From: Axinella damicornis
Taxonomy: Eukaryota; Porifera; Demospongiae; Axinellida; Axinellidae
Direction: 5' to 3'
Assembly: GCA_963931865.1 (NCBI GenBank)
Contig: OZ007507.1
Location: 9,500,689 to 9,564,688 of the forward strand
Length of the DNA: 64,000 nucleotides
Made by a program: the position numbers and the translations under genes. The notes under the pieces are model-generated. The model made no database searches and had not been told where the DNA came from. It was given only the letters and a program-made list of their open reading frames with translations. This document shows positions 2,826 to 57,683 of the stretch, in pieces. The first letter of the stretch is position 1. Every line of letters starts with the position of its first letter.

Positions 2826-3527
2826 TAGTCTCGGTCCCAGACCCAACCAACCCCAGCACGGATCGCTTTTAGTATCGCGCGCGGGGAAGGAAGGGTCTGG
2901 TAGATATAGTACACATTCCTAAGGTCTCATTACCGTTAATTGAGACTTGTTGAAATTATCAGGACGCATCAAAATTTCACACGTGGTCATCAAGAGTGAA
3001 GCCGCCTTTGAAGATATAGAGCTAGAGGCGGCAAGTAGTGTAGACATAGCCTCGTACACGATCGCTGTGCTTGGCTTGGTTTGGAAATGCCCTTTTTGCA
3101 GCAGCATTGCGAGTGACTCACGCAATCATCGGCATCTGGGCACTTCACCATCTGTGGATGCTGGGATCAGCGAGCTGTGTCAGTGTTGGAGGCAGCAAAG
3201 GAGAGATTCTACCTTCTGACCGCGTGTCCAAGGCGTGCTTCCAGAGCATGGAGATGCTGTTGAACTTGGAGAGTAGCGCTGGCAGTATTTTAAACATGCT
3301 GAAATCCAGAAGTTTTGACAACACCTTGTTATTGCATGCTGGCGATTCTGCACTTCCGGCATCAATATTGGTATACGTCATTGAGATAACTTGTTCTACG
3401 ATCTGATTGGATCCGCCCGGATTCTGGCGGAGTTTAAGGAATGTGGGCTATACCTACCAGACCGTGTTTCCGCGCGTTATACTGTAAGCGATACACGCGC
3501 TGGATAAACGGTCTGGGAATGAGACTA
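2826..3527. mobile_element. Foldback element, TAGYCTCGTTCCCAG family, long copy
   Basis: Terminal inverted repeats of about 110 bp. The left end reads TAGTCTCGGTCCCAGACCC and the right end, reversed, reads TAGTCTCATTCCCAGACC. Both arms then share the blocks GCGCG, GTCTGGTAG and CACATTCCT. The 9 bp before it (AACATCAAG) and after it (AACATCATG) match at 8 of 9 positions, as expected of a target duplication. The roughly 470-bp centre has open frames on both strands but no recognisable transposase. The 103-bp element at 45997 carries both of these arms and looks like an internal-deletion derivative. Confidence 0.7.
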
Positions 3528-9750: not shown

Positions 9751-10370
<620 letters not shown>

Positions 10371-11833
10371 GTTATGCTTGATTTGTGTCACTTCAGTTCT
10401 TCATGCTACCGACAACAGCGCAGGCCTAGCCTAGGAATATGTGTTACCTGTGATCACGTGACTAAGTGATTTGAATTTTGTGGTGCGCGTGTGAGCTAGG
10501 CCGAGGCACAAGCGCAATGGATATGAGCGAGCATGCAGGCTGAGGCTTGTACATGTAGCACATCCTCATAGCTGGCCACAGCCCTGCTATCTTAATTTTT
10601 AGTCCATATTTGCTAGTCCGTTTTCCGTTTCCCCTGGAGTGCGGACCAGCGTTACTAAGCTAAATTGTAGTTTTACTGTGCAATCGAGTAGACACTGTGT
10701 CCAGCGCATGGACAACCAGTCCGTTGTCTGGTCCGTTTTCCAGTCCATTCTGTGTTTTAGTCATGTCCCACTGGAGCCCAAGTCAGGCTCCTATTTCCCC
10801 ACACACCACAGCGAGCAGGTTTGGGGCCGCGGCATATTAATGGCTATTACTGCAGGTAATGTCTATAGTAGTTGCAGCATGAGTACGTTACATCATAGGC
10901 ATAGTAACTCATTAAGTTGTCTTATTCCCAGGATCAGACAGTACAGTGGAGAAGCCTGGGAACGAGGCTAATTGTTATAAAGACCAGGTCCATAGCATCC
11001 CTCCAAGGTGTAAGGAATGCAAATATGAGCACAGCAGCAGTACGTGGATGATATTAATTTTATCATTTTTATCTACGTATTGCACAGGCCTAGATAATCC
11101 CTCACCTTGGTGATATCACCATGGATCTGAATCACCCCAGGGATGGGGGCCATTAACTGCAATCCCACTGCAACATTTGCATTCTCTGTGGGCCTGCATC
11201 ACACAAGTAGAGGATGTGCATGCTCACAAGGTGTGTAAACAATAGGAGCAAAGTAGGCTCTCTAAAGTTAGTAACATGGGGAGGGGAAAAAAGAGGGTGG
11301 GGGTTGGGAACAAGGAGACAAGGGGAAGGTGGGGCGGCCTAGGGACAAGGGTTAGGACTGGAGACAAGGGTTAGGACTGGGGATAACAAGCCTAACATGT
11401 ACATGTAGCCTGTCACATGATGCTCACCTCAGTGTCTAGAGTCTTGCTCAGCAGCAACTCCAGCTCTCAAGGGCAGCAATCAAGTCAATCACACGTTGTA
11501 CTCCTGACAACTAGAGAAGAGAATTCAACTCACAATCTGGCTTGTTACACTTGACGACAGCACATAACGAAATGCATCAGAAAGATTTGATACTGCCTGG
11601 ACACACCTGCCAGGGTCAGCACACAAGTCAACCACACGTACTCCTGAAAACAAGAGAAGAGAATCATACTCCCAATCTGGCTTGTTACACTTGGACGACA
11701 TGCAGCACATAACCAAACGTATCAGAAAGTTTCCGTGTCTATAGATAACTGCCTGCCACACCTGATACACGTAGACAAATTCATTATGCATACATGTGAA
11801 GTAGCTAGATTGCTAGATTCTATGTACCGACAC
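10371..11833. other. No gene recognised; one decayed foldback end
   Basis: A right-hand terminus GCCTGGGAACGAGGCTA ends at 10970 and pairs weakly with TTATTCCCAGG at 10922, a decayed member of the foldback family. 11520-11590 and 11640-11720 are imperfect direct repeats (core CACAATCTGGCTTGTTACAC versus CCCAATCTGGCTTGTTACAC). No coding sequence is supported. Confidence 0.4.
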
Positions 11834-13193: not shown

Positions 13194-13593
13194 TAGCCTC
13201 GTACCCAGGCCCACATGCGGAACGCGGAAGTGGGCCTGGTGACACTTGGCAAAATTTCTGTATGTGCACAGTCAGCATAACTGCGTAAGCGATTACATTC
13301 CTTACTTGGATACATTCGAAATCACGCGGAAGGTAGTTGTTGGTGATGGCTAAGTAGAAAGTCCTTGCCAAGGAGCAACCAGAGGTGAGTCTTGAAGGCT
13401 AGAACAGCGGTTTTATCAAACGGCTACACTTTCCACTGAGATTAGAATGTAATTATTACGCAATAATTGGCAATGGACGAACGTGATTCGCCTACCCGAA
13501 ACCAAGACTGCTGAGCTCAGCACATACGGGAATTTTGCCAAGTGTCACCAGGCCCACTTCCGCGTTTCGCATGTGGGCCTGGGAACGAGGCTA
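13194..13593. mobile_element. Foldback element, TAGYCTCGTTCCCAG family, 400 bp, 9-bp duplication
   Basis: Left end TAGCCTCGTACCCAGGCCC, right end GGCCTGGGAACGAGGCTA. The arms pair for about 75 bp, each including an inner hairpin around GGAACGCGGAAGTGGGCC. The flanking 9-mers are identical (ACTGGTCCC before 13194 and after 13593). This is the best-preserved long copy of the family in the window. Its centre has no coding sequence. Confidence 0.85.
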
Positions 13594-20077: not shown

Positions 20078-23000
20078 CTGTAGTTAGTTGACAATAGAAA
20101 TTGTTGTTATTTATAGGTTTGCCGTACTAACAGTCGAACTGGTTATTGTATTGTCACGTAATGCATATCCATGGTAGTGCTATCATTACAGAGTATCAAC
20201 ATTTTCTTAGTACAATGTACATACCTTCTGACACTCAGAAAGGTGTCCAACTGTCTCTTGAAACTGCTCACTCTGTTCTTTCAGCTTGGTTTCTAACCGC
20301 TCACTCTGTTGAAGTAGCTTGGCTTCGAACTGCTGATGCTGCTTCTGTAGTTGCTTTTCTAAGGATTCCTGAATGAGATTTAGATTGGTTGACATTAAGC
20401 AATGTACTTTCGAGGATAGCAGAGCGGCAGAAGGCAGGGCAACATGTATAAGACTGGGATGATAATTATGTTATAACAACCCCAATACAGGCATCTGTTT
20501 CATATTTTATGCAAAAGGACAATCCTTACATCTATAATGCTTGCTTGTTACTTGTTGCACAATTTCTTCTACCAGTAGCTAGGTACACACTTGAGCAGAA
20601 ATTTACCCTCTACCAGGGAGCAGCGGAAGTCAGTCTTCATGGCTTCTTTAACTGATGCCAGTCTTCCATTTGGTGTACGGGCAAATTAAACTGAGGTATG
20701 TAATAAACTGACTAAAGAACCACTGACTCAGGCATCTGTGGTAGATGACAAACCCAGCTCTTCCCAAGCTCGTGATCTGGCATATCCATATAGCTTGTAC
20801 ATCTTTGTTCGCCCATATAATTATTAGCTTCATTCCCAGGTGCTCGGTATGGAGAGTAGAGATCTTCTCCCTGTACTGAGCGCCTGGGAACGAGGCCACA
20901 GGCATAATCATTGCATGAGATCTGCACAATAACAGTACCTACAAATTCATATCAGCTGATGTGCTTTGGAGCTCATAGCAGTTGCAGTCTCTTTGTTCAA
21001 TTGACTCATAACACAATGAGCTCTATTTAATGCACTGCTCCTCAGCATGACCATTATTATCTTGAGTGGTGAATACATTCGTAGCATACCATATTTCCAC
21101 GATCAAATGCCGCACTCGATTAGTGGCCGCCCTTGAATAATAGCCGCACCTCCAGAAGGACTGAACGAACTAAATGTCACCCTTGTTGCGGCTAGTATTT
21201 GAATGGTCGGCGATCGATCAAAGCGCTTTGTCTAGCCCCGTGACTTTCGCTGTGAGCATGAAGACAAGAGAACTGATTACTGGTCATATTCCCGAGAACT
21301 GTCTAAGCTTTGGCGTTTTCTGAGGTCGAGGCACGGGGGGCTAGCGACATGTGATGGGCGAAATCTTTCGTAATGGCTTGGGCGTTTCCTACCGTTTTGT
21401 CGGGATTATTATGATGGTACCGCACGGCCAGGACTGAAACAAAACTTCTTCTTTGTGCATACACGGTGCTCCAATCCGTTTCCATGCTTCCTTGTTAATG
21501 CTGAGTTTAATAAACACCGCCTTTGATTAGTGGCTGCCCTCGAATAGTAGCCGCAGTAAATCTCGCGATGAAATGAATAGTAGCCGCGGCGTTTGATCGC
21601 GGAAATACAGTATGCATGTAAATCTCAAAAATGGCATCCCAAACAAATCAGTTGAGAGAACGTGCTTAGAGTCTTGTACGCTCACTTTGACAGCTTATCA
21701 TGACATGTTGGTGTTTCGTATAGGTTGGAGGTAATTGTGGCAGCTGTAGCATTGAGCTCTAGCTTGAGGTAAATGAAATTGGCCATTGGAGAACATCTGG
21801 TTCGGTACATTCACAATGCATTTCAGGCCACTAAGAGTGCTGTCGGTCATGAAAGTGCTTGAAAGGTGACCGGTATGTTGTTATAAGATTACCGTGGTAT
21901 TGTCATACAGTCTGCCGACTCTATGTATACAAGAGTGTATAATAATAAAAAGAGAGTATCGAATTCGCTATAGGCTACGTTGAATGTATGCGGAAAGTAA
22001 CGTGACATCCAGTAGGGTGCACGTGATCCACACGGACTCGTCAACTATTGTACTCCCCAATATGGCCGAGTTTACTTGCTGCACGCACGCCTTGATCGTC
22101 GAGTCAAAGAGGCTAGCTAGCTGTGGTACGGTAGCCATGGCGTCTATGTCCGGTAAGATTGTGTTTTTGACGTTAGCACCATACCGGATGTCACGTTACT
22201 TTCCGCATACATTCAACGTTAGCCTATAGCGAGTTCGATACTTATTATTATACACTCTTGACGTATATTATATGCCCAATTACACTGTGTGTACCTTCCG
22301 ACACTCTGAAAGCTGTCTGACTGCCTCTTGAAACTGCTCACTGTGTTCCTTCAGCTGGTTTTTGAACTGCTCATTCTGTTCTTTCAGCTTGGCTTCTAGC
22401 TGCTCATTCCGTTCCTGCAGCTTGGCTTCCAACCGCTGATTCTGCTTCTGTAGCTGCTTTTCTAGGGATTCCTGAATGAGATTTGCAATGACACAGCTAA
22501 TATTCCTTTCTGATACACTTTGCCCTTCTAGTAAAGTAAAGAAGACATCCATATGCTGCAATGATTGTTCAGAGTTAGTTCCATACTCCTTGTTGCTAAC
22601 TTGGATCAAACATGACTACTGAAGTACCTACCGGAAGTGGTTTGATGGCATCCACGATTTTCACTCCAGAAGTGCTGTACTCATCCATGACCCACAACGT
22701 CGAATACCACTTGGCCAACTTTGTTTGAACCTGATAACTAGCAAATAAATCATACCACTGGGGAAGTAAGCTCCGTGGCACATTGGGATAATTTTCTTTA
22801 GAATCCTTTCTCACAAATCGATGGCGAATATCTAGAAACGCCAGCAGCTCCTCAAAATCCAAGATGAGGTCAATCTGAAAAGCAAGTACAAATACAATGA
22901 GCAAAATGGTGCACTATGATGTGGCAACTTATGGGTTTTAAACTTCGGATTGTCACAATGCTCACCTGTAATCTAATTCTGTTCTCTCTAGCAGTTTTCT

Positions 23001-26000
23001 GAAGACGATCAACATCGCCGACAGCCAGACCAGTCTACAATATCCAGCATAATAAGACATTCAAGTTTAAGTGTGTATATTGGTAACAATATAATTGATG
23101 AATGTGTAGATGAATAAGAAAGCAAAGTGGGTGAAATGGAATTCCCATTTCCACTCATTCTTCCTACTGTGGCCCTTCAAGCTTCAAGAGAGTCTCACTT
23201 CGAAACACAACACATACACACCAGATCGAGGAGAGGGTAAAGGTATGCAGGCAAAAACACCCAGGGCCAATGCTGCTGCTACATAGGCACTTCCCTCAGC
23301 CTTAAGATACCAAGGTACCAGAATCAAACATGAGGTTAATACGATTGAATTGCCAAATTTGAGTTTTGGCCAAATTTGATACCCACTATAATATAGTAGT
23401 ACGTACCTTACTGACTCTTACCTATAAATACACCGTTCGCGATAAGTGGACAGGCGTATAATTATGCTGTTCACACTCAAAGAGTTAAAGCTGTCTGCAA
23501 TAGTATGTTAGCCTCGTTCCCGGGCCACGCCCAGCTTTTCCTCACGCGAGCATGACATAATCGACAAATCACAAAATATTTTAGAACGAAAAAGCAAAGT
23601 TTCGCGAATTGTTCAACCAACTATGTACACATTCAATGCTTGGTGCTACGACAGTCGCCCCCCGCTAGTGAGATACATGTGGTAAGTTACCTCATACCTT
23701 TGCTCTTCTTGCTGTTCTGAGCCCCAGTTCGCCCACATTCAATCTACCACCTTTACGTCACACACGTGAGGAAACATACCAGGCCCTCCACATTCTTTCG
23801 TGGAACCGAAAGTGGTGCGCGGGCCTGGGAACGAGGCCAATAGTATAAGTAATGTGTTACCTTAACTTAAGTTCCCACTCATAGTTCATATAAGTGGGTG
23901 GCTACGTACATACGTAATCTGAGCTACACCTGAGGTGCCCACAACTCCATTCAAGTACTTCTAGTGTCGTGTATTCCATTAGGCTCCATCTACAATAAGT
24001 CCCATTACAAGAAAAACCTTGCAGTTGCATGTATTTACAGAAGATATGCCTACATCCAAGTTCAGTTATGGCAAGAGTACGCACATGTACCTGGTACAAC
24101 ATTATCTGCAGACATCTGATCATTCAGTTTTACATGTGGTTCCTTAGCACACAGCCATGGGATCCCATACAACTATACCTTTACTACACACCGTACTGGA
24201 CAGTAACTCACAAGAACAGTTGCAGATGATGCAACTCACCAGCAAGTTGCTCAGCAGCACTGGCATCAGGACCAGGAAGATGATCCAGAGAAGGAATGAT
24301 ACCGGTGGGAAGGCTATCTCATCCTCACCCTCCTGCTGGTGGTAGAGGTCATCATAATCCAGTTCTCCAGTGGTCATGGCCATCACCTTCACGATGGCTC
24401 GTCCAGGGTGGGAGAAGGCAGTACGCTGAAGAGGGATGGACACCAGTAGTTGTATCAGTTAGTTGTGTGAGTATATAGCTTCCTACAATACCAGAAATAC
24501 TGTTCTGTTCATCAGTCTAGGGATGTGACTCTAATAATTCAAACACTCAAACAATTCGAACACCCCTTTTCCAAGATTAAAGTTTTGTATTCCATTAAGT
24601 TTGAACACCCATGCAGGTTTGAAATTACTAGTCTATTAACAATGTAACATTCGAACAGTCACATGCACATTATGTACACATGCCAACAATAGTACTGCCA
24701 GAAAATGCAGAATGGATACATGCTGCAGTTAGAGTCGAGAGCAGTCCAGTTTAAATCTACAGGTCTCGATATCACACTCTGTGATCCCTCCGAGCAATCA
24801 GCCTTGGCTTCCCGGCATTGAACAGCGTCTCTATATCATAATATCAAGAGCCCATCATAATCGTATAAGGAAATTATCAAATTATCATGCACTTTACTAC
24901 TATCGTGCATCCCTACATCAGTCCTGGTACATGTACGTACGTACGTAGAACATGCATGCTCACGTATTATGCATGAATCTGCATGCTACTTCATGCTCGA
25001 CATAATTATATTGTGCACTTATTACTGTATGTATGCTGATAGTTCAGAACAACGATGTAACTGCCCAAGTTTCGATCTCAAGTTGTACCCCATTACATAC
25101 CACAACAGTTAACTTGGTACATGCATGTGACAACTAAGGGCCTCGTTCCCATGCCAACTCAGTCCAGCATTTGTTGCTTGGTGAGAAGGCCTGGGAAAGA
25201 AGCTAATTGGTTCAATAATATTGATATAGAATTTCAACTTTTCGGTATGCACATAAACTCAATCACATCATTTCACCGGTATATATTTCATACAACGGTC
25301 AAACATCAGAATTGTTTGCCACACCTCAGTCAACACAAGTTTTCTAATTTGCCCATCTCTGGAAAGTCAAAGGTTCAAATTACTGACCCATTCTCTGTAT
25401 TCAATAATTAACCCATACTAGTGCATACGTGGTTGACCACACAGAGATGCCTCGCGGGAAGCTTTGATATAATTTGGCAGTAGCAGAACATAATCACGAG
25501 TGACGGCGAGTCTCAGAGAATGGCGAATCGGAATGCCAACTTCATTCTGCCTGCCAAGTCTCTTTCTCTTGCATGCGGTCAGCCACTCTGACAGTCTCCC
25601 TCCTTGCCTCGTCAGTTCTCCCTCGATGTCGGTGCACTCTTCGCCTTGTCAATCGTCGTCTCCTGTCAGAAACCGATTCATGTATAGCACCTACGTAGCT
25701 AGTACCTAGCAGCGACGTCAACATCGACAAATCACAAACGTAAGATCACATGGTGCGGGTTGTATACACGCGCGTGCGGTGGGTCCAACGCGTAATTTAC
25801 GTGCGGGGCCACAATAATGCATTCCAATGCGTTACAGGACAAATATATATAAATTTATAGTCGCACTAGCCCAGATTCGACCTCCACACTGCACGATTAG
25901 TTGCCTCGCTTCCCGCTCGGCAACAATCCATAATAGAAAGCAACATCACAACTACTTGGCATTTCTAAGGTGCAAGTGGAGAGTGGGATATGAAAACTGA

Positions 26001-29837: not shown

Positions 29838-32800
29838 TCCCTCCCTCCCTCCCTCCCTCCCTCCCATTTTATGTTTAGATAAAGAAGTAAAAAGAAGATT
29901 GTCAACAGCAGAGTTACTGCATGAGAAATTTAAAAACAAAGCGGCTATGAAAGAGAAAGAACTGGAGGTGAAAAAATGGAGCTGGAACTTCAACAAAAGA
30001 AATGGCGACTGGAGGAAGAAGAACGGAAGAAGAGACTGGAATTGGACACAGAGAAGATGAGGCTTGAAGCTGAAGAACGAAGAGCTATGATTGAGCTTTT
30101 GAAGAAGCTTACGTAAGGCTTGCTTACATACAAGCATAACCAAAGGTCACTTACCTCAGCGAGCGCAACACCAATCTCCACACTGCGATCATGGTCATTA
30201 GCTCTTTCTGTTTGAATGATTTCACTAGTGCATGTGGATGGAACACAGAAGGGCCCGTTATGATTGCATGATTATTATGATCACATCACCTCATGTCCAA
30301 ATCATATTATTATGCAAAAATTAATGTCATGATTGTATGAATGACAAAACTCCCTGATTGTTCAAGTAAGTCTCTAAACTGGGTGGTGACACATCGAAGA
30401 AAGTTGATGTTTGTGATCCATACAGGCAGGTATGGCAGTTTGTAAGTATAGTTCCGACTAAGTAATACTTCCCAACAGGCTGGAGCAAGACTTTAAGATT
30501 TTTTTTGCACTCCAGATAGGCAAACTGCTGAAGTATTTTTCCAAATGCCCACTCCACACTGACACGGACAGCACTCATCTTCTGGTTGAATTCTTGCTCT
30601 AGAGGTGTCAGATGTGCACCTCGAAAAGGTGATAGTATGTTTCTAGATAGTCCATATGCAGGGTCTCCATATAGCACATATGGTTGGCCATTCGGCTGGT
30701 TCAGCGGTCTCAATTTGTTCGGCAACCCACTAACAGAGAGCATGAAGGCATCGTGTCTCGATCCTGCCTTCCATTGGTCCGAACATGTGTGCTACTAAGC
30801 CATTGGGTGTGACAACAGACTGTAGGACAGTTAGAGAATGAAGTTAACCACAATCAATCCTAATTACACAAATGTACATACCTGAAACTTAATACAGTGA
30901 ACTCGTTTGTGACCACTGTACATTATTCTTTGGTTTACTATTGGTCTTGCGATGGGCCGGACTGTTCCATCGATAAACCCAAAGCACTGCTGCAGTGGTG
31001 CTCCTTTGGCATGCACTGCAGCAGGAAAGGATGCTGTATCCAGCCAAACAAGGTCTAGATCTCTCAACAGATGACCAAATCGGTCATACACATCATCAAT
31101 TACCTGGATTCGATTCAAATAACAAACAAATGAACATGTAGCATAATAATTATGTCAAGCAGGGCTAGCTCCCTTCATACCGTGGCAAAGATAAGGCTGA
31201 GTTCACACTCTGTGCGACCAAACAAGGGAACAAGGTCACAGAGTCTGTTTGGGTATGTTAGCCTTCGCAACATGATCATCAGTGCCTCCATACCCGTTGT
31301 AGTTGTACCCTGCTTGCAGACATACTTGTCAGGGAGGTGCAATGCAGCTGATAGGCGTGCCATATCATCTTTCGAGAATCTATAAAATGTACCTCAGTCA
31401 TCTTTACTGACAACACAAGTAATACACAAGACTGAACAGCAAGCACTAACCTGAACAGTTGTTCACACTCCAAATTGGTCAAATCTTCTAAATTTAGCCT
31501 AGGACCAAGGATACGCTTCGGTTTCTCATTCAAAGTCAGCAAGAGATCTTCCAAATCATCCTCGCTGCTGGATGCATCCGAACTGCTATCATGGTCACAC
31601 AGAAGCATTGTAACCATCTCCAGATCACGCCTAGAATACAGGATATCGTCGTCAAGAACGTTTACGAAGGAGTACAAGATGCAATCACGCAAATTCTATG
31701 CACTAACTTACTTCCTCTGATACGCCATTTTGTCCAACGTTTGCGCCGATCTAAAACTCACTTTTGCCGCTGATCGCCTACGGTCAACGTGGTCTGGTCA
31801 CGTGACCGTACAGCGTTCAACGTAAACGCTTATCTAAAACTCTCTATTGTCTTGTTTGCGGTGGTGGGGATCCAATTCAATGTGTATTGATGTGCACAAA
31901 GTGCTTTGGAGCATGTGATCGCTATAAAACACTCCAGACATTGTTAATGAATAACTTGAAAGCAGTTGTTGATGTCATAGTCAGTGACCACAATATTCAA
32001 CTCAAGTCCCAAAAGAGTTGGAAAGTAGAGCAACTACGTATACATGTGGTACATCTGCATCGCGGCTCCAACTCCAGCATGCAACCAGCTCAACTACGGT
32101 TTCACCTGACGTTGCAGTAAGTTTCACTGGCATCTGACAACTGTTCAACCTCAGCTAGTGTTGACAGCATAACTGAATGGGGATCTATTTCTCACTATAT
32201 AAGTATGTACATACGTACGTACGTACGTACATAAGAGAACATGTCACACTCAGGAATGTTGATATGAAAGTTGCGTGTTTCCTGCCAGCCTACTGAGTTT
32301 TATTTGCCCAATGGCTTGACGGTACGAGAAGTACAACCTGAGAGTTGGATCAGTGGACGAGCATGCAGTGCCTCCAAGGGCTTGCAGAGCTGGAGCAACT
32401 ACATATGGAGTCAAACAGTCAGCGCAGTCGACATCTGCTTACACTGCAACTCCACGATAGTCAGGTTCGCGTAGCCAGAGGTAGGGTACAAGCGAGCGGG
32501 GCCTTTAGGGCTTGCAGAGCTAGAGCAGCTACATGTGGAGTCGAACAGCAAATGTAATTGACATGTTTACACAGCTCCAACTCCAAATTCACACTAGCTA
32601 GATCGATCATACTCATAAGCATGTGGTTAGGTTATGCATGCAGTGTGTGCGCCGAGGCATGATCGATGCGCATACCAAACAAGCGGTATATACATATTCC
32701 TAGTTTCTAAGTCTGTGATGCTGCTATACAGATACACATTATCACTCCATACATACGTAGGTACACGTTGGGTATAAAATACATTCTCCCCATCGCAAAC

Positions 32801-38800: not shown

Positions 38801-41800
38801 CGTACGATAATACATCAATTTGTCCGATCATACCTTGGTCTGAAAATGAGCTTTGGCTGGCTGTAGTTCCAGAACCAAGCTACAGAGAATCGCCAATCTT
38901 TCAACTCAAAGTGCGATGGGTCTGTAGTATTGACTGAAGGTCCCACCCACTTCCGGTAATATACACGCTCGGCGCTAACGCGTCCGATTATACATGTCGT
39001 CCGATAATCAATGGCTTACTCTAGTACTGATCTTACTTGTGTCTTGATCTAATGGCCTCGGAGAGGGAGTTACGACCACCGGCACCCTCAGCAGTTGGGT
39101 CCGCCCCTTTCTCCAATAAATATTTCACAGTCTCAGCATTTCCACCAAAACATGCCCAATGCAAAGGAGTTATCTACGGAACACAAGATAGAAGTAGGTA
39201 CAAGAAAATCATTCCTTGAAACTAGAGGTGCTCAGCAGAGCACATACCCCGTGCGCAACTTTGACTTGAATGCTATAGAGGCCTACCACCGATTATTCAT
39301 ATAGCATGCACGATGAGCTAGCTAGGCCATGATTAACAGCGATGTTAGCATGCAGAATGAGATACCGTAAGTTGTGGCAGTAATGTTAGAAATAGGGTGC
39401 GGTCAAGTTGTATAAATTAGAAGCAAGAATTTCATGCAGCCTCTCAATTAGATCTCTGGTCTGTGAGTTATGTATTTTCTGAATTCTGACACTTCTATCC
39501 TGAAATAAGCCTTCAACAAGGCCTTCACTGCTCAAACTGCTTGGACAGACAGACAGACAGACAGACTGACTGACACACAAACCGATCACTCAACCCCCTG
39601 CTGCGCACGGGGTAATTGCCACTAGTGAGAAACCCTAGCCTCATTTTCAGGACACTCCGACATATAATATATGTTCATAGTACGTACATCTTCCCTACAA
39701 CATTTTCGCTGTTGGGATCCAAAAAACGAGACTAAGATACCTGGAATACTAAATAACTGAGCATGCACTCTCACCATTATTAGTACACCAGTGACCAATG
39801 AAATTTTCTGTGTACATCATCAACCTTCACGTGACATCCAAAAGTCCAGTATACGTACTACCACTGACATGCATATTGCCATGAACATTTATAACTAGTG
39901 ATAACTGAATCATGATAGGAGTGAGTACACACTCATGTGTAGATATCTTAGCCTCGTCCCAAGGCCTCCGCCCAGATTTTATCTCGCAGCCGTGGAGATA
40001 AAATCTGGGCGGAGGCCTGGGAACGAGGCTATAGATACCTATGACATACTTGTACTGCACAATCATGAGATACATACACAGTGGTTGGATGTTACCTAAA
40101 CAGCAAAACTGTTGCTGTTGAAACGCAACAAAACAACAAAACAACTGAAACTGGAGACAGTAGATACTAGCATTTCCCTAAGCTGGGTATGCCCATGCAG
40201 CTCAGGTAGTACCAGTCCAGAATCCAGTTGTGTAAAGCTAAGTGTTTACTGCTTGCCATCATGTGTCTTGCCAGCTATCAGTAAGGGTAGCTACACTCCT
40301 ACAAAACAACAATACTGATACGGAGATATACTTACTCCATTGTCATCTTTGATGTTGACATCAGTTCCCTTGTTGCCGAGGTATCTCACTGTGATAAGAT
40401 TGCCACTCTCTGCTGCTACGTGCAAGGGTGTCCGCTGATGGTACGTAAGAAAGAAACAAAGCTTAAATTCACTGCCTCAATGCAGGACTAATTGGTACCA
40501 TGATTCCCGTGGGCATGAGCTCTTTTCAACTGTAACTATAGCATGTCACAATGGGTTTTAGTGGAGGCCAAATACACTGCTGATCGTATGTTTGGCCACC
40601 GCTTGTGGAATGGCTTGTGGGGCATAGTTCAGGGTTGCTGTCCAGCATCCATGGATGGCAACACCTTTGTCTCTATTCAACAGTTTGTCTGTGGCAGTGA
40701 GGCAGACACTTGTATGTATCTATTGCTTCTTTCAAGAGCACTGTGTTGTTGTTTGTCACCTAACCCTAAACAAAAGGTTCTGCCGTAGTACTTGCCATGA
40801 CTTTGGCCAGATTCCTCAGCAGGTTGTTTCATGCCAATACCAATTGTAACTACTGTCGTAAGCTTGTCTGCAACAAGGGAGGGCAACAGGGGTGAAATCT
40901 TTTTGGTTAACAATACAATTTGATTTTAGAGTGTTACTGCTTGCCATGCTGAATCTTGTAATGGTAATACAACAGCATTGCTACATAGTGTGGAGTCAGC
41001 AGTAGCCTCATTCACCTACCCCATCGTCATCTTTAATGTTGACATCAGCTCCCTGGTCACCTAGGTATTTGACAGCGTCAAAATTTCCCTTCCTAGCTGC
41101 CAAACACAGTGGAGTCCGCTGATGGAGAAAAAATAAAGATTAACAAAGACTACAATTAAGCTTGTAGTTGGTTGCAAAAAGGTATATTTCAGTTCAATGC
41201 TCAGAAAGCCCATGAGATACACCAAGTAGTCATTGTGTACTCCAAGGCACAAAAAATGGCTATGCTGTCAGCTTCTCCAGTTGTGAGTGCTGTAATAATT
41301 TCTTGTCTTCCCTTTGGCCGCCATTGTTAGCGATTGGCTGAGCGTGGTTGCCATGTGGCATGTGTGAACTAACTACAATACTCAGCTTGCCCTACGCAAC
41401 CGGGGTTGCAAAGGCTACCAGGAGTGTGGTTGCTCCTCGTTATCAGCAAAATTCAATTACTGCTATCAGTCTGAGCAATCAACTGTTCCTAACTCACCTA
41501 TGAGTTGGGGAATGGGTGCAGGGGGCCGAAAAGTCAACTTTCTACAGTATTTTGACCAGGGAACTGTGGAATGCCAATCATATATTCTAGGCTGGCCTTC
41601 AAACGCTTCAACAAATCAATAATGGTAACACTCCTCCCCAAAACAGCAATCACTTACCCCATGGTCATCTTTGATGTTGATATCAGCTCCCTTCGCAAGG
41701 AGGTATTTCACTGTGTCCTTGTTGCCTATGGAAGATGCCACGTGCAGTGGACTCCACTGATTGAGAGAAAGAAACTGGCGGAGAGATAGAAACAAAGGTA

Positions 41801-44142
41801 AACGGGTACCAAGAAAATGATTGCTGGAGCATTCCAGTTCTCAGCTATACGTACACCACACAACATCACAATATCAAGATTCTAATGTGTGTGCGCGTAA
41901 CAGAAGTGGGATGTTCTTGGGGTGGGACTAGACTATAGTGACACCCGACCTTCGTACTTCAATTTACTGAACCTTGAACTCCGCGCAGAATGTCGAGAAC
42001 ATTGGGCATGGGCTAGAATATTCCAGAATGGCTGGCGGATACAATTGGGGAGCAGCGGACGCAATCAGGGAGCTGCAGTTGAAGCGGATGCAAGTGGCGA
42101 GCAGCAGCTGAAGTGGACGCAATTGGGGAATTGGGGAACAGCAGCTGAAGTGGGGAGCAGCAGCTGAAGCGGACGCAATCAGGGAGCAGCAGCTCTGCAC
42201 AGAGAGCTGTCTAGTGCCAGATTACTCACGTAGGCGAACGAGGGGCAAGTAGCTGAGCGAGCGAAGCTACTTGTACATATGACATTTGAGATGTAAAAGA
42301 ACATGATTATTAGGCCACACTTTTATTATAAGAAGGAAATATACCAAACACATAGTTATTATTGCGCAAGGTGAGTGTTTTGGGGGAGATGACAGATGTC
42401 ATGAAAATTAGATTGTGCATTTACCAGCCACGGAACATGATTCCATCACCTCGTAGCCTCGAGGCCTCTTGATTACTGCCATAAGCCCAGCTGCTCTTGT
42501 AGGAGCAAACTGGGCAGTGAAAGAAGTGACTATATTGCTGCTAAACTCAGCAGGAAATGGAGAAGCCTAGACCTCTTTATGGGCATGGTAGCCTCTTACC
42601 GTTGCTGATACAACAACTGAAAGTTGGTTTCAAACTTGACTGGAGTTTGATTGTTGGGGTGAGCCTGAGTGAGACCTCACACTGCAGGCTGCTGAGTACA
42701 GTACGTGATACGCTGCTGTACATGAGCTGTCCAGCTGGCTGGAGGGGAACTAGGCTTTAGCGATGAAGGGAGAGGGGAAATCCAGGCTTCAGCGAGAGGG
42801 AGACTGTCAGACTGAGCTGCAGTGACAAGCTGAAATCTAATGAGCAGGAGGCAAGCATTGCCCATAGCCATGCCCTAGCTGAAAACTCTGCACTTACCAA
42901 CTGGTTCACAGACACATCAAGCACATCACGTTGGATTTGTTTGTACATATTCAATGTATACATAATTATATATACGCAAGTACGTAGTTCATATACATGT
43001 TGGGATTCCGGTACTTTGTGCAACATTCCTACTGCTTCTCAGTGCAGAACGTGTCTTACTCAAGCTTGCCCCACTGGCCATTCTCATCTGCCTGTGTGAC
43101 CTGCCACAACTGCGTAATTACGCAAAAAGAGACTCTGTATTCACATACGTACCTCATTCCAACCACCAATGTAGATGCGTGACTTGGTGTTGATATCTAG
43201 AGGTAGAACAAGATATTTTGCACTAAAAGAACTAGTTCAGGGTCACTAATACACATCACAGGGCTTCCAACACACTAAACCAAGTAGACCACGAACTGTC
43301 AACTTAACCAATTGTGCATTGGTGTTCACATCAAAAGCAATTTGCACTAAAAGAACTATTGCTTCAGACATGTCTATTCCCAGTCTGTGGGAACACGAGA
43401 ACACATTACTGTACATGCCTGTGCCTGTGCCAATGGACCATCTGCCTCCATATTGCTACGAAGGGCTTTCCTGGTGGTGCATACACACGTGGAGGACCAA
43501 TGAATGCGCTTTATGCAAAGTCAGAGTCTGGCTACATGGATGGTGAGCAGTATATATGCTGTGGTTTGAGAGGGTCTTCCTGAAATACGTACTGCTCTCC
43601 TGACAGGCCAATTATCCTCGTTCAGGATGGGCATAAATCACACATAAACTGGATCAAGAGAGCACGTCGAGAGGGTGTCATTCTTTTCAACCTAGTCACT
43701 CAACAAGAATCTTTTCAAGCCGCTTTTGGTAGTACTCTTAAGTCACTCACATTTGCTCATCAAGATTTCAAAGATGATTCCCACGTGTGTTCAGGGATCC
43801 ATGTGACAAGACTTGTACACCCTTCAGAATCAAGCAATCCTTTAGCGATGCTGGCATATGCCCTTTTGACCCCACCAAAATCAAAGTCGATATCCTTGGT
43901 CCTTCAGAGCACCACCAATAATTGGCCATAATAGGCGACCCTACGCTATGTAGCTTCTCAAAGTCATTGAGGATTACATCGAAAGCGTTTGTATCAAACG
44001 GACACACTCTGCTTGGTCATCAAAATATATAACAGGTCCACAATGGCCACATGACATTCATGAGTAGGAATTGACCCAATCAGTGGTTCAAGAGATCCAG
44101 AGATTATGTCAAAAGATTATGTCAAAAAAATTGTACCTAGGC

Positions 44143-44182
<40 letters not shown>

Positions 44183-46835
44183 CAGGCACCAACTATGGCC
44201 TTCCTGAAATGTCTGTGTGTACCAAAAGTGGACCCACTGTGGTGTATCAAACTAACATGTGAGGACGACCTCTATACAATGAGTGATATGTGTGCGTATA
44301 TAGAAACAATATTTGAGATGGATGTCATATCTTGATGCTAAAGAAGAGGCTGATTTGGTGGTGTATCTTGTGGAGTCATCTACCCTTGTGTACGTGAAAA
44401 TGAGACATGAAGCACGTAAAAGGTATTGTCGAGAAGTTCGTTATTGAGAGAGGTACTCTACATCTAAGTAGGAAGGGGAGAGCGAAGGAGCTGGATGATG
44501 TGGTTGTGAAGTTGAAGGGGCAACAGGTGGCTCAGAGTGAAAAGGAAAAGTGTCTGGGAGTGTGGATAGATGACTGTTTGAAGTGGAGAGATCACATAGT
44601 TGCTGTTCGACGGAAGTGTTTTGCTGGTCTGGCAAGGTTGAGAAGGCTGAGAAATACTCTGCCATTAACCACGAAAAGGAAGATATACCGTAGTTTCTCG
44701 AAAATACGCCCACCCTCGAAAATACGCCCACCCCCCTTTTTCGCGACAAGTTGTTGCAAAGGGTCATTCATTACTCGAAAGTACACCCACCCTATTAGGG
44801 CCTATTTTCGGGAGAGGGGTCCTCGAAAATACGCCCACCCCCCTCTTTGAGCAGATTCTAAATTCATCGCCCATGGGCGTATTTTCGAGAGACTACAGTA
44901 CAATGCCTTGGTGCTGCTGTATCTGGACCACTGTTGTGTGCTGTGGCAAGAATGCGGGAAGACATTAGAGCAGAGGGTTGAGAGAATTCAAAACTATGGA
45001 ATGCGACTGATATGTTCAAAGGCCCCAAGAATTCCTAGTGAAGAATTGAGAAGGAACCTGAAGCAGATGCCCTTAACTAAGCGCAGAGAGATGTTCAGGT
45101 TAACACTCGTGCAGCGATGCTTACATAAGCAGGCACCGACTTACCTGTCCGAATGCTTTGAGGCGAATGGAAATTATGGAGACAGAATTACATGGGGACA
45201 CAGAAATCTCCACCTCAAGCCAATTAAAACAGAACTTGCCTGAAAAGCTATGCACTTTCAAGGGGCATGCAGTTGGAACACCTCGGTGCCGGGATTAAAG
45301 ATATTGAGAGACTAAAGTCTTTAGGTGCCGCCTGAAGACTATCCGAACAATAATCAATTGGTGGAGCGAGTGGGGGCCGAGATTGGGTTGCAATTGAACA
45401 GTCAGAAATCCGAGACATCAAGGACTCCATTCTGCTCTCTCTCCCAGGGGCTCAGATGGTAGACCCAATGAAGGCCACTCTGTTGGGGTCTCCAATCGGT
45501 GATGTGTCCTCTATCTCTGACACCCTCAGCGACAAGACCGACCAACTGAGGTAGATGGGGAACAGGCTCCAACATCTGTCTGCTCATGATGCCATTCTGC
45601 TCCTGAAGGACTCTTTTGCTATTCCGAAACTGCTGTATTGCCTCCGAACCTCACCCTGTTTCCTGTCTCCCCGACTCCAGGAATATGACAACCTGCTCAA
45701 GAGCATTGTGAGTGGCATCACTAATGTCCACTTTTGATGAAGGAGAAGACCCTGCCTGGATGCAATCAACGCTCCCGGTCAACCTCAAGGCATCTTGCAC
45801 CGCTGACACCCTCTTGGAGAATGCAACTAACCCCAGAACTCGTACTCGTCTACTTGCATCCACTTCTGGGGAGTCTGGAGCATGGTTGAATGTCCTCCCG
45901 ATTTCATCGCTGGGCCTCCGCATGGACAATGATACCATCAGGGTAGCGGTTGGCCTCCGTCTGGGCGCCCCACTATGCAGACCTCACACATGTCAATAGT
46001 CTCGTTCTCAGACAATTTATCCAGCGCGTGTATCGCTTCCAGTATAATGCACGCGCGATACTAAAAGCGATCCGTGCTGGGGTTGGTTGGCCAAGACTAA
46101 CGTGTCATTATTGTGGTGCAGAGGTTGATGCTCAGGGAACACATGGACTCAGTGTTCGTCAGAGTGAGGGGCGTCATCATCACCATGCTTCTATGAATGA
46201 TATCATCCATCGGACATTGACCTCGGCTAAATTCCATCCCGCCTGGAACCATCTGGCCTCCACCGATCAGATGGGAAGCGCCCTGACGGAGTCACGATAG
46301 TCCCATGGAAGAATAGCCAACTTTTGGTGTGGGATGCTACCAGTCTGGACACCTTTGCCCCCTCATATACCTCGAGAGCCAACAGCGAGGCTGGAGCAGT
46401 GGCTGCCTTAGCGGAGGACAGGAAGAAGGCCAAGTACATTTGTCTGAAGCCTACCTACTGCTTCACTCCAATCATCATCGAGTCTTCAGGAATTTTTGGC
46501 CCACTGACATTGGAGTTTCTAAAAGACCTTGGTTTTTGACTCAAACAAGCCACCGGTAATGACAACTCCTACACCTACACGGTCCAGAGACTGCCTGTAG
46601 CAGTACAGAGGGGGAATGCTGTAGGGTCAGCATCCGCCTTGGACATCCTCCCATAGCTTTTATTTTGTTATTGTGTTTGTTTGTTTGTTTAGTTCTGTCC
46701 TTCTTTGTGTTGTTTTGCATCAATAGCTATAACAGCTAAGGTTCAGTTCTTCTTTTGTTTTTATATACAGTATGTCATTTCACTGTTATTTCTGTCACGT
46801 ACATGTGTGAGTTATTGTAGTTGTAGTTTGTATTG

Positions 46836-48893: not shown

Positions 48894-51800
48894 ACCATGG
48901 ACTTCCGCCACAAGGATTTGCACTGAACCAATCAGATTGCGGAACGAAAACACGTGAACATTTGACTATTTTGTAGGTGTGTTTACTTTCCCATGCTAAC
49001 GCATAAATTATAGACTCAGAAATGAGTGTCAAGGACGAAGCACCCCCGGAAAAATGAAGGTAGATGACAGGTGTGCGAGACGGCCACTGGTCTTAGACGC
49101 TGTTCACTTCGGTTTGTTTGCAGGATCAGCTCGCTCATTGTCTGTCACCGCTTACGGGATCGACAGTTCGCAAGGTGAGTTGAGGAGGGCAGGGGCTAGA
49201 ACCTTCCAGAATGGCTGGGTCTGCAAGCAGACACAGTTGGGGAGCAGCAACTGATGGGGGACACAATCGAGGAGCAGCAGCTGAAGTAGACACCATCGGG
49301 GAGCAGCAGCTGAAGCAAACACAATTGGGAAGCAGCAGATGATGCGGACACAATTGGGGAGCAGCTGCTGAAACGAACGCAATCGGGGAGCAGCAACGCT
49401 TCATGTTGAGGCGGACACAATAGGCTCCTCTCTCCATGTTGGATCACTATCGTTCACAGATGTTTATGTGCAGGGCTGTCAGAAGCAGCTGCAGAGTGGT
49501 CAGGCCAGAGTAGCCTTGTTCCCAGGCTCTTGAGGAGATAAGGCCAGGGTTGGAGTACGTTGTGGCGTGAAGTGCCGCGCAACATTTTTAGCGCTCGTTT
49601 GCTAAGGGTTGTTGGGGGGGGAGAGAGAGTCTGGGGGCATGCCCCCCAGGAACATTTCTCCTTCTGAGCTGCTTTCTTAGGCCATTTCAGAGGTACGTAT
49701 GTACGCCTATGTAGCTAGCTGTTGAAAGATTTCAGTGCATCTGTAACTTACAGAACGATTGCTTTGGAAAGATCGTGGAATGTGAGGGCCGCTGATTCTG
49801 CTATGATGCTGTTGCACGAGGCACACATAATTATACCGTAATAAAAAAAAGGAACTTTTAAGCCCAGACCAGTTCCGACGGCTCTGATGTGCCAAAACTA
49901 ACCATGCTGGCGAAGTTGTGAGCGTTGTAATAGTTTTTGTCTTCCCTTTGGCTGCCATTATTGGTTACTCAATCTACATAACGGTCATAACGTCACAACG
50001 TGACATGAGTTTTAATTGGAATGAGCTGTAATACCTGGCTTGTGATACCTGCAAGTTGCACGGGCTACCAGTATAGCTGTTTCCACTTGACAACTCAAAA
50101 CCAATTCTATTTATATGTGTTAACGAACACTATGTAGATACTGCTGTTTATCTCCTTACCTACACCATTCTGGATCAGGTTATCCATCACTGGAATGGAC
50201 CCAGCCCATGCAGCATAGCACAGAGCTTTGTTCGCAGCTGGTCGTTCTCCCGTTGTGTTGTCATCCTGGAGAAGCCTCACCAGTTCTTCTAGGAGATGGT
50301 GGAAACTCTCAACATCATTAAGTCGAATGGATTTCTCCAGGTCCTCGAGCACCTGCTCCTAAAATAGCGTACATGATGTGGAGGAAGAAAAATCCTATCT
50401 GGATTATGTAAGCAAGTACGTATAGTACATTGTATAGTCTACAACTTATTGTACCATTCAGAGTGCCTGACATACCGTAGTGTCCCGCTAATACGCCCCC
50501 TTCAAAAATACGCCCTCCCCCTCTTTTTCGCCCAAGTTCCTGCACAGGGTAGTTTGACTCGTTATAACGCCCCCCTGGTGAGCGTCTTCTGGAATATCTA
50601 ACCTACACTTGCGCAACTTTGCAGATCGTCTCTCATGCAGATCGAGTAGTCACCATTGACGCCGACGGTACAAGGCACCTCGCTGCCACTCTTCTGCAGG
50701 AAATACTAGGAAATGTTCTGTGGTTCATGACCGACAGTATTGCTGTTCTTGAGGATGCCGGGCCACAGCGAAGAATGTTATGGCCCTCGAGTTGAAGTGG
50801 CAGCTCTTCTCGCCGATGTAGGGAGACTACGCATGATGACCACGAACAGTACTGGCGCGATCGTTTGTACTTTTGTAACTGTGAACATGCAGTGCCATAA
50901 ACTAGCAAAACTTTTTGAGGGGGCGTATAATCGAGACTAATTGCGTACTCGAAAATACGCCCCCTCCCCTCTTTGGGCTTCATGTAGTGTACAAAATAGG
51001 GGGCGTATTAACGGGACACCACGGTAATTATTGTACACACATTGTGGTGCGAATACTGGGGCCCAGATCCCATCCCAATACTGAGCTGGAGAATGAACTT
51101 TAACCGTTGTAACATGCCTGCGTACGTACTTTGAAAGAAAGATGCAGTGAATTATAGTACTGATACGTAGGTAAATTCTTGCTTCGTTTCGTTGTTATTT
51201 CGGCTATTCCATAACTATTTATAACATTGGCTCCACCTCTTCGTGACCTCAGAGTCCCAGGACACATACATTGTAATGCATTTGGAAACTTCATGCTTCG
51301 AGATGACCGCTAGGAAACAGTCTTTTCCCACAATTTATATACGTACTTCACAGACGTCGTGCCTATATTGTTTCGGTTGTTTTTTCTAGCAACATTTCCA
51401 GTCCACCAGTAAATTGGTGAAGCCTCTATAGCAGGCTTACACAAATTCACTTGTGCTGCTACACAGGTACAGGGTGAATATGTTTAACACAAGCACTTGC
51501 AGTGAGTCTGTGGAAACTACAAGGGCTTCAGGTTACCTTACAGTTCACTGCTGATTGGCCATGGTAGAAACTGGCCTCTTTATTCACTGGACTGGACTGG
51601 ATTGGACTGGACTGGACTGGACTGGACTGGACTCACCCAAAAATCTGTAAAATACCTTTTTCAGTGTACTACTATTTTCTGAATTCTGACACTTCTATTC
51701 TGAACTAAGCCTTCAACAAGGCCTTCATTGCTCAATCTGCTTCACTCTACCCCTGCTGCACACCCGCACATGGGGTAATAACCCCCCCCCCCCCCCCCCC

Positions 51801-53457: not shown

Positions 53458-53532
53458 TAGTGTCGCGTGGCATAGACCCTTCCTACGACGCCCACTAATA
53501 GTCGCAGGAAGGGTCTGGGCCACGCGAGACTA
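53458..53532. mobile_element. 75-bp foldback element with 9-bp duplication
   Basis: TAGTGTCGCGTGGCATAGAC paired with GGGTCTGGGCCACGCGAGACTA. The flanking 9-mers are identical (AGGCAGACT). Confidence 0.85.
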
Positions 53533-53672: not shown

Positions 53673-53717
53673 TAGTCTCGTTCCCAGACCCTGAACGCGC
53701 ACGCGTTCAGGGGACTA
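53673..53717. mobile_element. 45-bp foldback element with target duplication
   Basis: TAGTCTCGTTCCCAGACC and a CTGAACGCG/CGCGTTCAG stem ending GGGGACTA. GATTGAAG is duplicated on both sides but present once at the matching point of the other repeat copy (about 12986). Confidence 0.85.
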
Positions 53718-53817: not shown

Positions 53818-53859
53818 TAGTCTTGTGCCCAGACCCTAACCCCGGGCCCTGCGAGACTA
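53818..53859. mobile_element. 42-bp foldback-like sequence
   Basis: TAGTCTTGTGCCCAGACCC ... CCTGCGAGACTA at the end of the dispersed repeat, without a clear flanking duplication. Confidence 0.5.
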
Positions 53860-55230: not shown

Positions 55231-55265
55231 TAGTCTCGTTCCCAGACAGTACTGGGAACGAGACT
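55231..55265. repeat. 35-bp palindrome related to the foldback ends
   Basis: TAGTCTCGTTCCCAGACAGT followed by its near-perfect complement; essentially two family termini joined head to head with no interior and no clear flanking duplication. Confidence 0.7.
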
Positions 55266-55473
55266 TGGTTGACATTGTCTGAAGCATAGTATACGGACTT
55301 CGACGGGCGCGTTACCGGTAGGGATTTACCGCAAACGTACTAATGACAATATTACAGTGAAACAGCGCCTGCTGTTGGGCTCAATACTTTATGTTCCTTA
55401 AAAAGTGTTCAAAGAAAAGTTGCTGTATGCTTCATGAGCGCCCATCAAGCATTTCACTGTCACAAGGTTAAAT

Positions 55474-55493: not shown

Positions 55494-55599
55494 ATCCCTA
55501 ATGGGTGTGCCAAAGGAACACAGTTTGTCTGGTCTGCAGTGATAGTCCAGCCTTCATTAATCAAAGGTCACAATTAGAATACCCCATGCTTGCTAGCTA

Positions 55600-55638
55600 T
55601 AGTCTCATGGGGCCAGACCCACTGGCCCCGCGAGACTA
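55600..55638. mobile_element. 39-bp foldback element with perfect 9-bp duplication
   Basis: TAGTCTCATGGGGCCAGACC followed by CACTGGCCCCGCGAGACTA. Identical 9-mers TGCTAGCTA flank it (55591-55599 and 55639-55647). The smallest insert of the family seen here. Confidence 0.8.
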
Positions 55639-55639
55639 T

Positions 55640-57683
55640 GCTAGCTACTAGTCCAGTGGCTGAACTTAGCTAGTATTACTCAGTGAGTTTGAGGGGGGTT
55701 GAAGTTATATCACTTAGCTACTACAAAATAGAGAAAGAGCTCGCGAGTGTGAATTCTTGACAAAATAATCTCTTCCAGGCAGGCTTGCACTGGGCCCCAC
55801 TCAGGAATTGTTTGCCACTGCTGTGGTCATGGAGGAATTGTCTGTCGGAGGACACCGTGGTAGCTAGGCGGCCCGCTCTTCCCAGTGGAAAGAAACAGCC
55901 GTCCCCAGCTAGCTTAGGAGAAGCCATCCAGCTGATAGCCCATAGCTAATTGTAAGCATTGGAGGCCAATGCCAGAGGCCGGGATTGCATTCCAAAGTTC
56001 ATGATCAGCTAATGCATTTCATGTGGCAAGTAGCTAAGTTTGTTGGTGCAATATATGGCAAGGGTGCATTCATGAGTCTCTGCATGGGCAGCTTAAGAAG
56101 TGCACAAGCTAGGTACTTCAACGAAGATTGTGCTATGGAAATGCAGTGCCGACAAAAAGTAACCGATTCTGAAGTTAGTATAGTCAATTCCTCCTGGGAA
56201 GTCACCAAGCAATCAAATTACATTTACGTATAGTGCATAGGGAAGGCATTGTTCAGTTCAGATAGCTATACTAGCTGTGATAGTTAAAACTTAAAAGTGC
56301 AGTGCATGCTAAAGATATATAGCTAGCTATAGCTCACCAAAACTTCCTCCACAAACAAACATACATGTAGTTAGACATGATAACATGTCAGTATAACTAA
56401 ATGCAGGTCACACGCCTAGAGATTTCTTCTTCCCAATGTCAGAGCCACCTGCAGCTGTGCTCACTAAATCCAGAAATGTTCTGCATTCTGATTGGGCGAT
56501 ATATCAAGCAAACGGCTGGAAATTAGAAATTCTCAGTGGTGCACGACAAGTCATCAATAGAAACTTTCTGCTGTTTGGGCATGTGACTGGTTAAAGGGCT
56601 GCTGCCTCTTCATCCCTGATTGTGGATTTCCTCATCACTAGCTCTCCTGTCGCTTCTTGTTCATCCATTGTTCGTTAACTACTTGAATGGGAAATTAGTG
56701 ACGCCAATGCAGACCTCCATCTTCACAACGCCTTCCTCCAGCATGCCTGTATTTTATTCTCACTGAGTTCTCTCGCTCCCTTCCTCTGCCAGCTGCAACG
56801 CCCAAGACTTCACTGGAAATTTCCGCCTTCCCAGTGCCCACCAGCATGCAAACGGGATGCTTTGAGTGAGCTGTACTTGGGAGGACAGGCCCTTTTGCTG
56901 ATGGAAGATGTTTCCCCTCCTCAAACCGTCTGACCTCTGCAGCTCTCTTCAAGCCTGTACGATGTGGAATCACCTTGTCTTCTCTGGTGCTCAGTTTCTG
57001 GTCAAAGTCAGCAACTATCACAGGCACTGCAAAGAGAATGCTGTAAACCTGTGCAGAATTGAAGAACCAATGGAGAACACAGTGGCCCCCAGGAAGAGGA
57101 GATCTCTTGCTGACTTCACCCCCAACACCCGGTCACAGGCTGCAAAATGAGCACCCCAACCTCATTCAATGACATGCACTAGCTTGAGAGGGAGAACACC
57201 AGGACACTCACAGTGAACCCCACCCAGCTCAGCCCCTCCTATCACCAAAATGGAAGTCTTGACACGTTTGGTCAGCCAGAATCAGTGCTGAAGGAACAGT
57301 CTGACAGGACAAATAGCCAGCTAGCTATAATTCATCTGCCAACACTCCTTGGTATGTTAATTACTACAGTCATAGCAGTACGCATGTCAGACCAAAGCGT
57401 TTGCTGGCTACTCAATGGAAATAGCACATCCGGAAGATTGAATGTTAATTGATTCCATCCTCATTTTGCTGTTATTAGCTATCAATGCATCATTATTGTA
57501 TGGCCAGTTTTCTACAGCAATTCTTGGTACTATGCAGTTATTTTACAATCATAGAAACTGACTCAACTCGACTTATTCTTATTCAGTAGCTAGTTTCCGA
57601 GACTAAAATAAAATTAATGGTCCATCTGGCCTGATGGACAGCTGTATGTGCAGAGGTCTGAATACTCGGACTCTCAGTCCACC
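55640..57683. other. No gene recognised
   Basis: 56900-57150 has a Lys/Arg-containing plus-strand frame ending RRSLADFTPNTRSQAAK without a known domain. Otherwise no feature beyond scattered short repeats. Confidence 0.35.

Follow-up and report, generated by a model that had tools for sequence, protein, structure and literature searches.

We asked whether a palindrome of only 39 bp, flanked by a perfect 9-bp direct repeat in the genome of the sponge Axinella damicornis, could have reached its site as a mobile element in its own right. The element (TAGTCTCATGGGGCCAGACCCACTGGCCCCGCGAGACTA, positions 55600-55638) and the two copies of its target site duplication (TSD) TGCTAGCTA (55591-55599 and 55639-55647) were read directly from the letters of the window, that is, the whole stretch of 64,000 nucleotides analysed, which corresponds to C3:9500689-9564688 of an assembly of 226.5 Mb in 120 contigs; neither this unit nor the others described below carry a strand assignment. 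The initial annotation had described the insert, with its exact flanking duplication, as little more than two termini, and both points were borne out, the shortest units found in this work being confirmed as little beyond their two ends. The sponge genome contains thousands of such tiny transposon-like hairpins, with 33- and 39-bp forms present at several places.

Within the window the end motif TAGYCTCGTTCCCAG was found 24 times at ≤ 3 mismatches against an expected 1.87. At least seven elements had been named as sharing this end, and all those listed are in place. The identical 9-mers reported on either side of the 400-bp element at 13194-13593 (ACTGGTCCC) and the 75-bp element at 53458-53532 (AGGCAGACT) were confirmed, as was the difference of one base between the TSD copies of the 702-bp element at 2826-3527 (AACATCAAG/AACATCATG), the ends of which are similar to those of 106-111 bp units elsewhere, and of the 83-bp hairpin at 39949-40031 (TAGATATCT/TAGATACCT). 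The remaining two are less complete, as the TSD of the 103-bp element at 45997-46099 has two mismatches (ACATGTCAA/ACGTGTCAT) and the unit of about 45 bp at 53673-53717 has an intact left end and a truncated right end; here the 8-bp direct repeat GATTGAAG directly adjoins each end by eye, while an in-register 9-mer duplication was not found. Among six further copies regarded as decayed, a TSD could be recognised at the 331-bp copy at 23509-23839 alone (ATAGTATGT/ATAGTATAA, 2 mismatches); the copies of 54 bp (10917-10970), 74 bp (20825-20898), 68 bp (25138-25205) and 42 bp (53818-53859), and a 36-bp palindrome in which the terminal base on the right is changed (55231-55266), have no recognisable TSD, with 5-6 mismatches at best. 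TAGYCTCG is indeed common to the units, but bases 9-13 are variable (TTCCC, GTACC, GAACC, TGCCC, CGGGG and others), and TTCCC, which had been included in the shared end, is absent from the 39-bp and 75-bp units. The gene content of the window is of animal type and includes a TRAF/MATH ORF; an ion-channel domain is matched weakly, below the cut-off of that family. The window also holds a 263-amino-acid open frame at 6316-7107 on the forward strand, with a GCDTTSAFFGKGK stretch and no Pfam match, and 29-bp minisatellite units, alike by eye, in four arrays including those at 10036-10291, 42054-42126 and 49225-49395.

Matching 9-bp flanks proved to be in large excess around these ends, as anticipated by the initial annotation, when the check was run on a sample of 264 kb comprising the window and 20 stretches of 10 kb taken in 1-Mb steps on C1 and C2. 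TAGYCTCR ends (≤ 1 mismatch) facing each other at a distance of 28-800 bp formed 445 pairs, 16 of which had exactly matching 9-bp flanks (mean 0.22 and maximum 2 in 1,000 permutations). At ≤ 1 mismatch the number was 27 (mean 0.37 and maximum 3 in 1,000 permutations), although these are partly non-independent, L045 representing three copies that share one TSD and two rows covering composites. For the same 445 pairs a duplication length of 8 bp gave a single match and lengths of 10-13 bp gave none. In this sample pairs of ends in the wrong orientation yielded no exact 9-bp match, and 40 scrambled motifs yielded none among 14,658 pooled pairs, with four matches at one mismatch. A target duplication of fixed length, 9 bp in this sample, is shared with MITEs and falls within the 8-10 bp range given for Mutator-like elements (MULEs) (PMC3169594, excerpt). 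Chance as the origin of motif and duplications is ruled out by the count of the motif in the window together with the exact flank matches, and an assembly artefact as the main cause is ruled out by the thousands of units and the many different duplication sequences in the sample.

A motif-free scan of the same 264 kb, for units of 20-130 bp with inverted ends and an exact direct repeat outside them, returned 26 rows at a repeat length of 9 bp, of which 15 came from one tandem repeat (L032) and 11 were of the TAGYCTC type, two of them copies in L045 that share a single TSD. At 6, 7, 8, 10 and 11 bp it returned 8, 27, 1, 1 and 2 rows. The 27 rows with exact 7-bp direct repeats (window and L031-L050) include none of the TAGYCTC type.

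Genome-wide, exact 8-bp inverted termini bound 4,456 units of 24-54 bp, although this count takes in tandem arrays with a period of the unit plus 9 bp and at least one poly-C accident. They comprise 1,284 T-type units (TAGTCTCG-N8-38-CGAGACTA; reversed control, 1) and 3,172 C-type units (TAGCCTCG-N8-38-CGAGGCTA; reversed control, 0), and with their terminal inverted repeats (TIRs), noncoding size and high copy number they resemble MITEs. Per bp of length, C-type units number 152 at 34-44 bp, 75 at 24-33 plus 45-54 bp and 3 at 16-23 bp (1,677 units in the first of these classes and 26 in the last), so that the lower size limit is in the mid twenties and a broad maximum at 34-44 bp holds more than half of the counted short units; this spectrum describes all units, not only those proven mobile. 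Of the C-type units listed at 34-44 bp, 12 of 50 are exactly 35 bp long, and the 50 listed T-type units become more frequent towards 50-54 bp (17/50), the places listed, about 100 at most per search, being mostly from C1. Arrays of unit plus 9 bp were observed with a 58-bp period at C1:1337821 and with ends every 48-49 bp at C1:9264478.

The constant part of the listed T-type units is TAGTCTCG, mostly followed by CCAG a few bases further in. Bases 9-13 differ between lineages while the two arms within a unit agree, with identity in 22 of 47 T-type units listed, against a mean of 6.3 and a maximum of 15 after shuffling. In most ends base 4 can pair with the base in CCAG-R-C (C-G 53, T-A 26, T-G 15, non-pairing 13 and C-A 0 at 107 ends). 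A looser count of the same two bases at about 143 ends gave C-G 76, T-G 22, T-A 20, C-A 3 and others 22, and because of these three C-A ends, and of further C-A ends elsewhere, many of them in one array, we take the pairing as a hint only; the pattern may reflect subfamily history. Among 52 duplicated units of ≤ 150 bp, 48 fold better than their interior-shuffled versions (z below -2; median z -6.2), and a median of 79 % of bases are paired, so that, as in foldback elements, inverted repeats make up most of the unit. Four do not pass z -2, among them a 33-bp unit (z 0.1) and a 58-bp unit (z 1.5), which suggests that a perfect hairpin is dispensable and that recognition of the ends weighs more than hairpin shape.

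We fetched the flanks of 20 regions, which hold 21 units out of the 50 T-type ones listed; the choice was non-random and favoured the shortest units and those whose stems are shared. Nine of the 21 are flanked by an exact 9-bp duplication in register (29, 33, 37, 37, 40, 40, 46, 51 and 51 bp, the two 51-bp units having one 9-mer in common), two by a duplication with one mismatch (33 and 54 bp), and one of 24 bp by an exact duplication once one extra base is allowed. In the other nine the duplication is poor or absent, three of them representing one 26-bp unit within a larger repeat and two representing one old insertion. With exact duplications at 33, 29 and 24 bp, at most 16, 14 and 12 bp are available per end, and the approximately 18 bp thought to be needed by a transposase was an overestimate.

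The clearest indications that short forms move as such come from individual units found at more than one site. The 33-bp unit TAGCCTCGAACCCAGGCGCGGRGTTCGAGGCTA has 17 copies in the genome at ≤ 3 mismatches (control, 0), six on one common flank and three on another, leaving 10 contexts. In eight of the 10 the unit has its own 9-bp TSD with ≤ 1 mismatch (permuted flanks, 0 in 2,000 trials), in register in three and with 1-2 extra bases needed at the right end in five; of the two contexts in which a 9-bp TSD is missing, L145 shows nothing clear and L153 an 8-bp repeat by eye. The context shared by six copies also exists as an empty, joined site at 7 places, 5 of them without mismatch over 31 bp (control, 0), and the earlier expectation that short copies would be absent at paralogous sites thus holds for one 33-bp unit, although a single insertion may be the ancestor of all six filled copies. 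Genome searches for the empty site of the second 33-bp context and for that of the focal 39-bp unit each gave 0 matches. The 39-bp form is present three times in the genome, at the focal site, at C3:9636335, 80 kb away with the same flanks, and at C2:7016033, on a different contig and with a different TSD (GCCCGTACC/GCTCGTACC). With the same interior at independent sites and with duplications of their own, these 33- and 39-bp forms demonstrate spread as short units.

Longer units of the family indicate how such forms arise. For one subfamily, with its ends extended to 33 bp, we found 228 and 232 matches at ≤ 2 mismatches, and from the 100 exact ends listed of these 460, on C1-C5, 32 facing pairs were recognised by eye, 15 of them at 86-115 bp and 14 at 590-637 bp, with one each at 179, 1306 and 8663 bp. 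One unit of 112 bp forms an almost perfect hairpin, and the units of approximately 110 bp look like two long terminal repeats joined with the middle gone. L066 and L068 are the same insertion on common flanks, with lengths of 31 and 27 bp and the change at the hairpin tip; some short units, then, shrank in place after insertion. The focal 39-bp element probably derives from a family of 51-54 bp hairpins, having lost 12-15 bp from the tip, the probable parent being present at two sites, C1:3820825 and C1:10923528, with different duplications. In the pathway we propose, longer parents of about 630 bp would lose their middle to give TIR-TIR hairpins of about 110 bp, the tips of which would then be trimmed, partly after insertion, to about 50 and on to 33-39 bp. 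The trimmed copies, down to at least 33 bp, would still serve as substrates of the transposase, so that re-transposition would be possible at the steps tested.

It could instead be argued that shrinkage in place is the only process, with MITEs of 100-700 bp inserting and their arms losing the middle by replication slippage or hairpin nicking to leave immobile ultra-short units. The L066/L068 pair, the individual tips seen by eye in most listed short units and the continuous length spectrum are all in keeping with this, but the 33-bp form has the same asymmetric tip in its 10 contexts, eight with a duplication of their own, the 39-bp form sits on two contigs and its duplication differs between them, and filled and empty sites of a 33-bp unit contrast cleanly, even if the six filled copies may be one insertion. 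The recurrence of exactly 35 bp among the listed 34-44 bp units, with three of the four units compared differing from each other by transitions only, also speaks against it, and we regard shrinkage alone as a poor candidate. Passive spread, in which copies are carried within larger repeats or segmental duplications and the short unit itself does not move, would account for the six and the three 33-bp copies on common flanks, for 26-bp copies on common flanks (L051, L054 and L065) and for the same-flank copy 80 kb from the focal site. Once common flanks are collapsed, however, the 33-bp unit is left with 10 contexts, eight of them with TSDs that differ, and at 7 places one of its contexts is present without the unit; these independent contexts and empty sites refute passive spread as the sole explanation for the 33-bp unit, and as a general account we consider it very improbable.

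Re-insertion of hairpins by another route had also been put forward, the unit moving as a folded single strand or an extruded cruciform with the complementarity of its arms as the signal, in the manner of bacterial REP sequences, IS200/IS605 ends or mitochondrial hairpin elements. The gain in folding of the 48 units, the identity of the arms at bases 9-13 and the mostly pairable base 4 fit this route, which overlaps with the cruciform variant of synapsis considered below. Arm identity, however, is expected from any TIR-TIR fusion, the base-4 pattern weakens in the looser count, where C-A ends exist, and the four duplicated units that fold no better than shuffled ones do not conform. A duplication of 9 bp is characteristic of staggered double cutting with transfer of both strands and not of known single-strand routes; single-strand elements of the IS200/IS605 or REP type are not known to make a target duplication, whereas one of 9 bp is present here. 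The route keeps a minor share of our confidence and is, in our judgement, unlikely.

We consider it highly probable that the units are extreme, TIR-only MITEs, trimmed at their tips, and that a DDE transposase cutting with a 9-bp stagger and recognising about 13 bp per end moves them in trans. A fixed-length target duplication together with TIRs is a sign of a DDE transposase with a matching stagger, and it is this combination that points to such an enzyme here; MULEs make duplications of this kind. The transposase would be made elsewhere in the genome, would bind TAGYCTCG and the nearby CC(C)AG, and would cut the target with a 9-bp stagger. Mutator is the likeliest superfamily and our leading guess. 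The link to it made by the initial annotation agrees with the 9-bp duplication and with 51 matches to the MULE domain in the genome, 50 of which are free of stops where they match and many of which lie in long open frames, but no transposase could be tied to TAGYCTCG ends: on C1-C5, 1 of 23 MULE matches lies within 5 kb of such an end (by eye, against the 100 listed of 460 ends), and among pairs of these ends with exact TSDs at ≤ 12 kb in 51 loci no transposase-bearing element was found. The largest match in that search is a 4254-bp unit in L042 with an exact TSD and no frame over 115 amino acids; the 8663-bp pair of ends (C1:18145094-18153756) is outside the 51 loci. The window itself contains a fragment of a DDE_Tnp_4 endonuclease domain on the reverse strand at 30327-30791, which we take to be of Harbinger type.

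Non-autonomous units with TIRs, MITE-like members and mostly 9-bp target duplications are also known as Tm1 in root-knot nematodes, where the MITE-like members average 431 bp and the TIRs are composite and contain tandem repeats (PMC3169594, excerpt). Tm1 differs in having other end motifs (PMC3169594, excerpt), whereas the sponge units occur by the thousands at 24-54 bp, barely more than their ends, and without a linked transposase. An earlier description of the TAGYCTCG family was not found among the papers listed from the open-licence PMC literature.

The size of the units invites comparison with the IESs of Paramecium. IESs of this type are bounded by a TA dinucleotide instead of a longer duplication and are excised during development by a domesticated piggyBac transposase; the sponge units, though they start and end with TA, have 9-bp duplications outside them. 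The likeness is that of transposon remnants with a sharp lower size limit, IESs being decayed transposons down to about 26 bp, a minimum that their authors relate to two 13-bp ends (PMC3464196, excerpt). IESs are unique-copy sequences excised in development; their sizes have a periodicity of about 10 bp, and the peak that lies between 26-30 and 44-46 bp is almost empty, such gaps being explained by looping, and the smallest end spacing in vivo given there for bacterial cut-and-paste transposons is 64-70 bp (PMC3464196, excerpt). In contrast, the 33- and 39-bp sponge forms are multi-site, and the densest class measured is that of 34-44 bp, which rules out an empty size class of the Paramecium kind.

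Cut-and-paste transposition is thought to need DNA between the ends, and the 33-bp unit at eight sites together with the peak at 34-44 bp indicates that the 64-70 bp limit does not fit here. A straight duplex of 33-44 bp is far too short to loop, so the ends are most likely joined without a loop in cis. As the size range of the IES gap holds more than half of the C-type short units as well as the multi-site 33- and 39-bp forms, such synapsis is the option we favour, with our confidence about evenly divided. The transposase subunits could be in contact along the short duplex, an end could pair in trans with the end of another copy, or the palindrome could be extruded as a cruciform. There is perhaps an even chance that the units of 33-39 bp are the shortest duplication-making DNA transposons known, with ends paired without looping and a floor set by two abutting sites of 12-13 bp and not by the stiffness of DNA. 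The mobile 33- and 39-bp forms are shorter than was thought possible for cut-and-paste transposons, and the system offers a direct test of synapsis without looping, along with a natural series of sizes that starts near 630 bp and reaches 33 bp or less. Repeat finders with larger size floors would presumably miss such elements.

Short mobile palindromes are also known as repetitive hairpin-forming elements in sponge mitochondria (PMC2800124, excerpt) and as GC clusters in yeast mitochondria, of which GC42 is 42 bp long (PMC4478555, excerpt). Both are mitochondrial, whereas the units described here are on contigs of 10-23 Mb, and the yeast clusters are flanked by AG or ACT repeats instead of 9-bp duplications (PMC4478555, excerpt).

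A scan of viral and prokaryote contigs for the end motif returned 2 and 70 loci; inspected by eye, most of these are single sites or belong to a look-alike from cyanobacteria. This look-alike, the hairpin CGTTCCCAGGC..GCCTGGGAACG of Microseira, Hormoscilla and Oscillatoria, resembles the inner half of the arm in sequence and differs in that the CGAGGCTA terminus is absent; we take the likeness to be a probable coincidence. Among the 72 loci (L071-L142) only L073 has a TAGYCTCG unit with a 9-bp TSD, of 147 bp with the exact duplication GTATGCACC (L073:5862-6008, LWTN01000165.1). The record of this contig assigns it to a Cycloclasticus symbiont from a poecilosclerid sponge, and since its frames are animal-like by eye it is most likely host DNA in a symbiont MAG record. 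L109, deposited under Nitrosopumilus HM_N, has one end only, with helitron-like and retroelement-like frames by eye, and together with L073 it suggests that the family is common to several sponges. Microseira wollei loci including L079, L085, L091, L112, L114, L122 and L133 contain a repeated hairpin CGTTCCCAGGCTCCTGCCTGGGAACG that is like the inner arm, without the terminus or a 9-bp duplication.

Units of the family were also observed within or next to one another. At L042:4336-8706 a 117-bp hairpin (TSD GGAATAGCC) holds in its arm the 4254-bp element of the same kind, with TSD AAGCTGGGC and inverted ends of about 60 bp by eye, so that the family is nested in itself. At L070:41-151 two 51-bp units that differ from each other are arranged in tandem, with three copies of the 9-mer CCCTCTACC between and around them, the second unit having probably taken the duplication of the first as its target.
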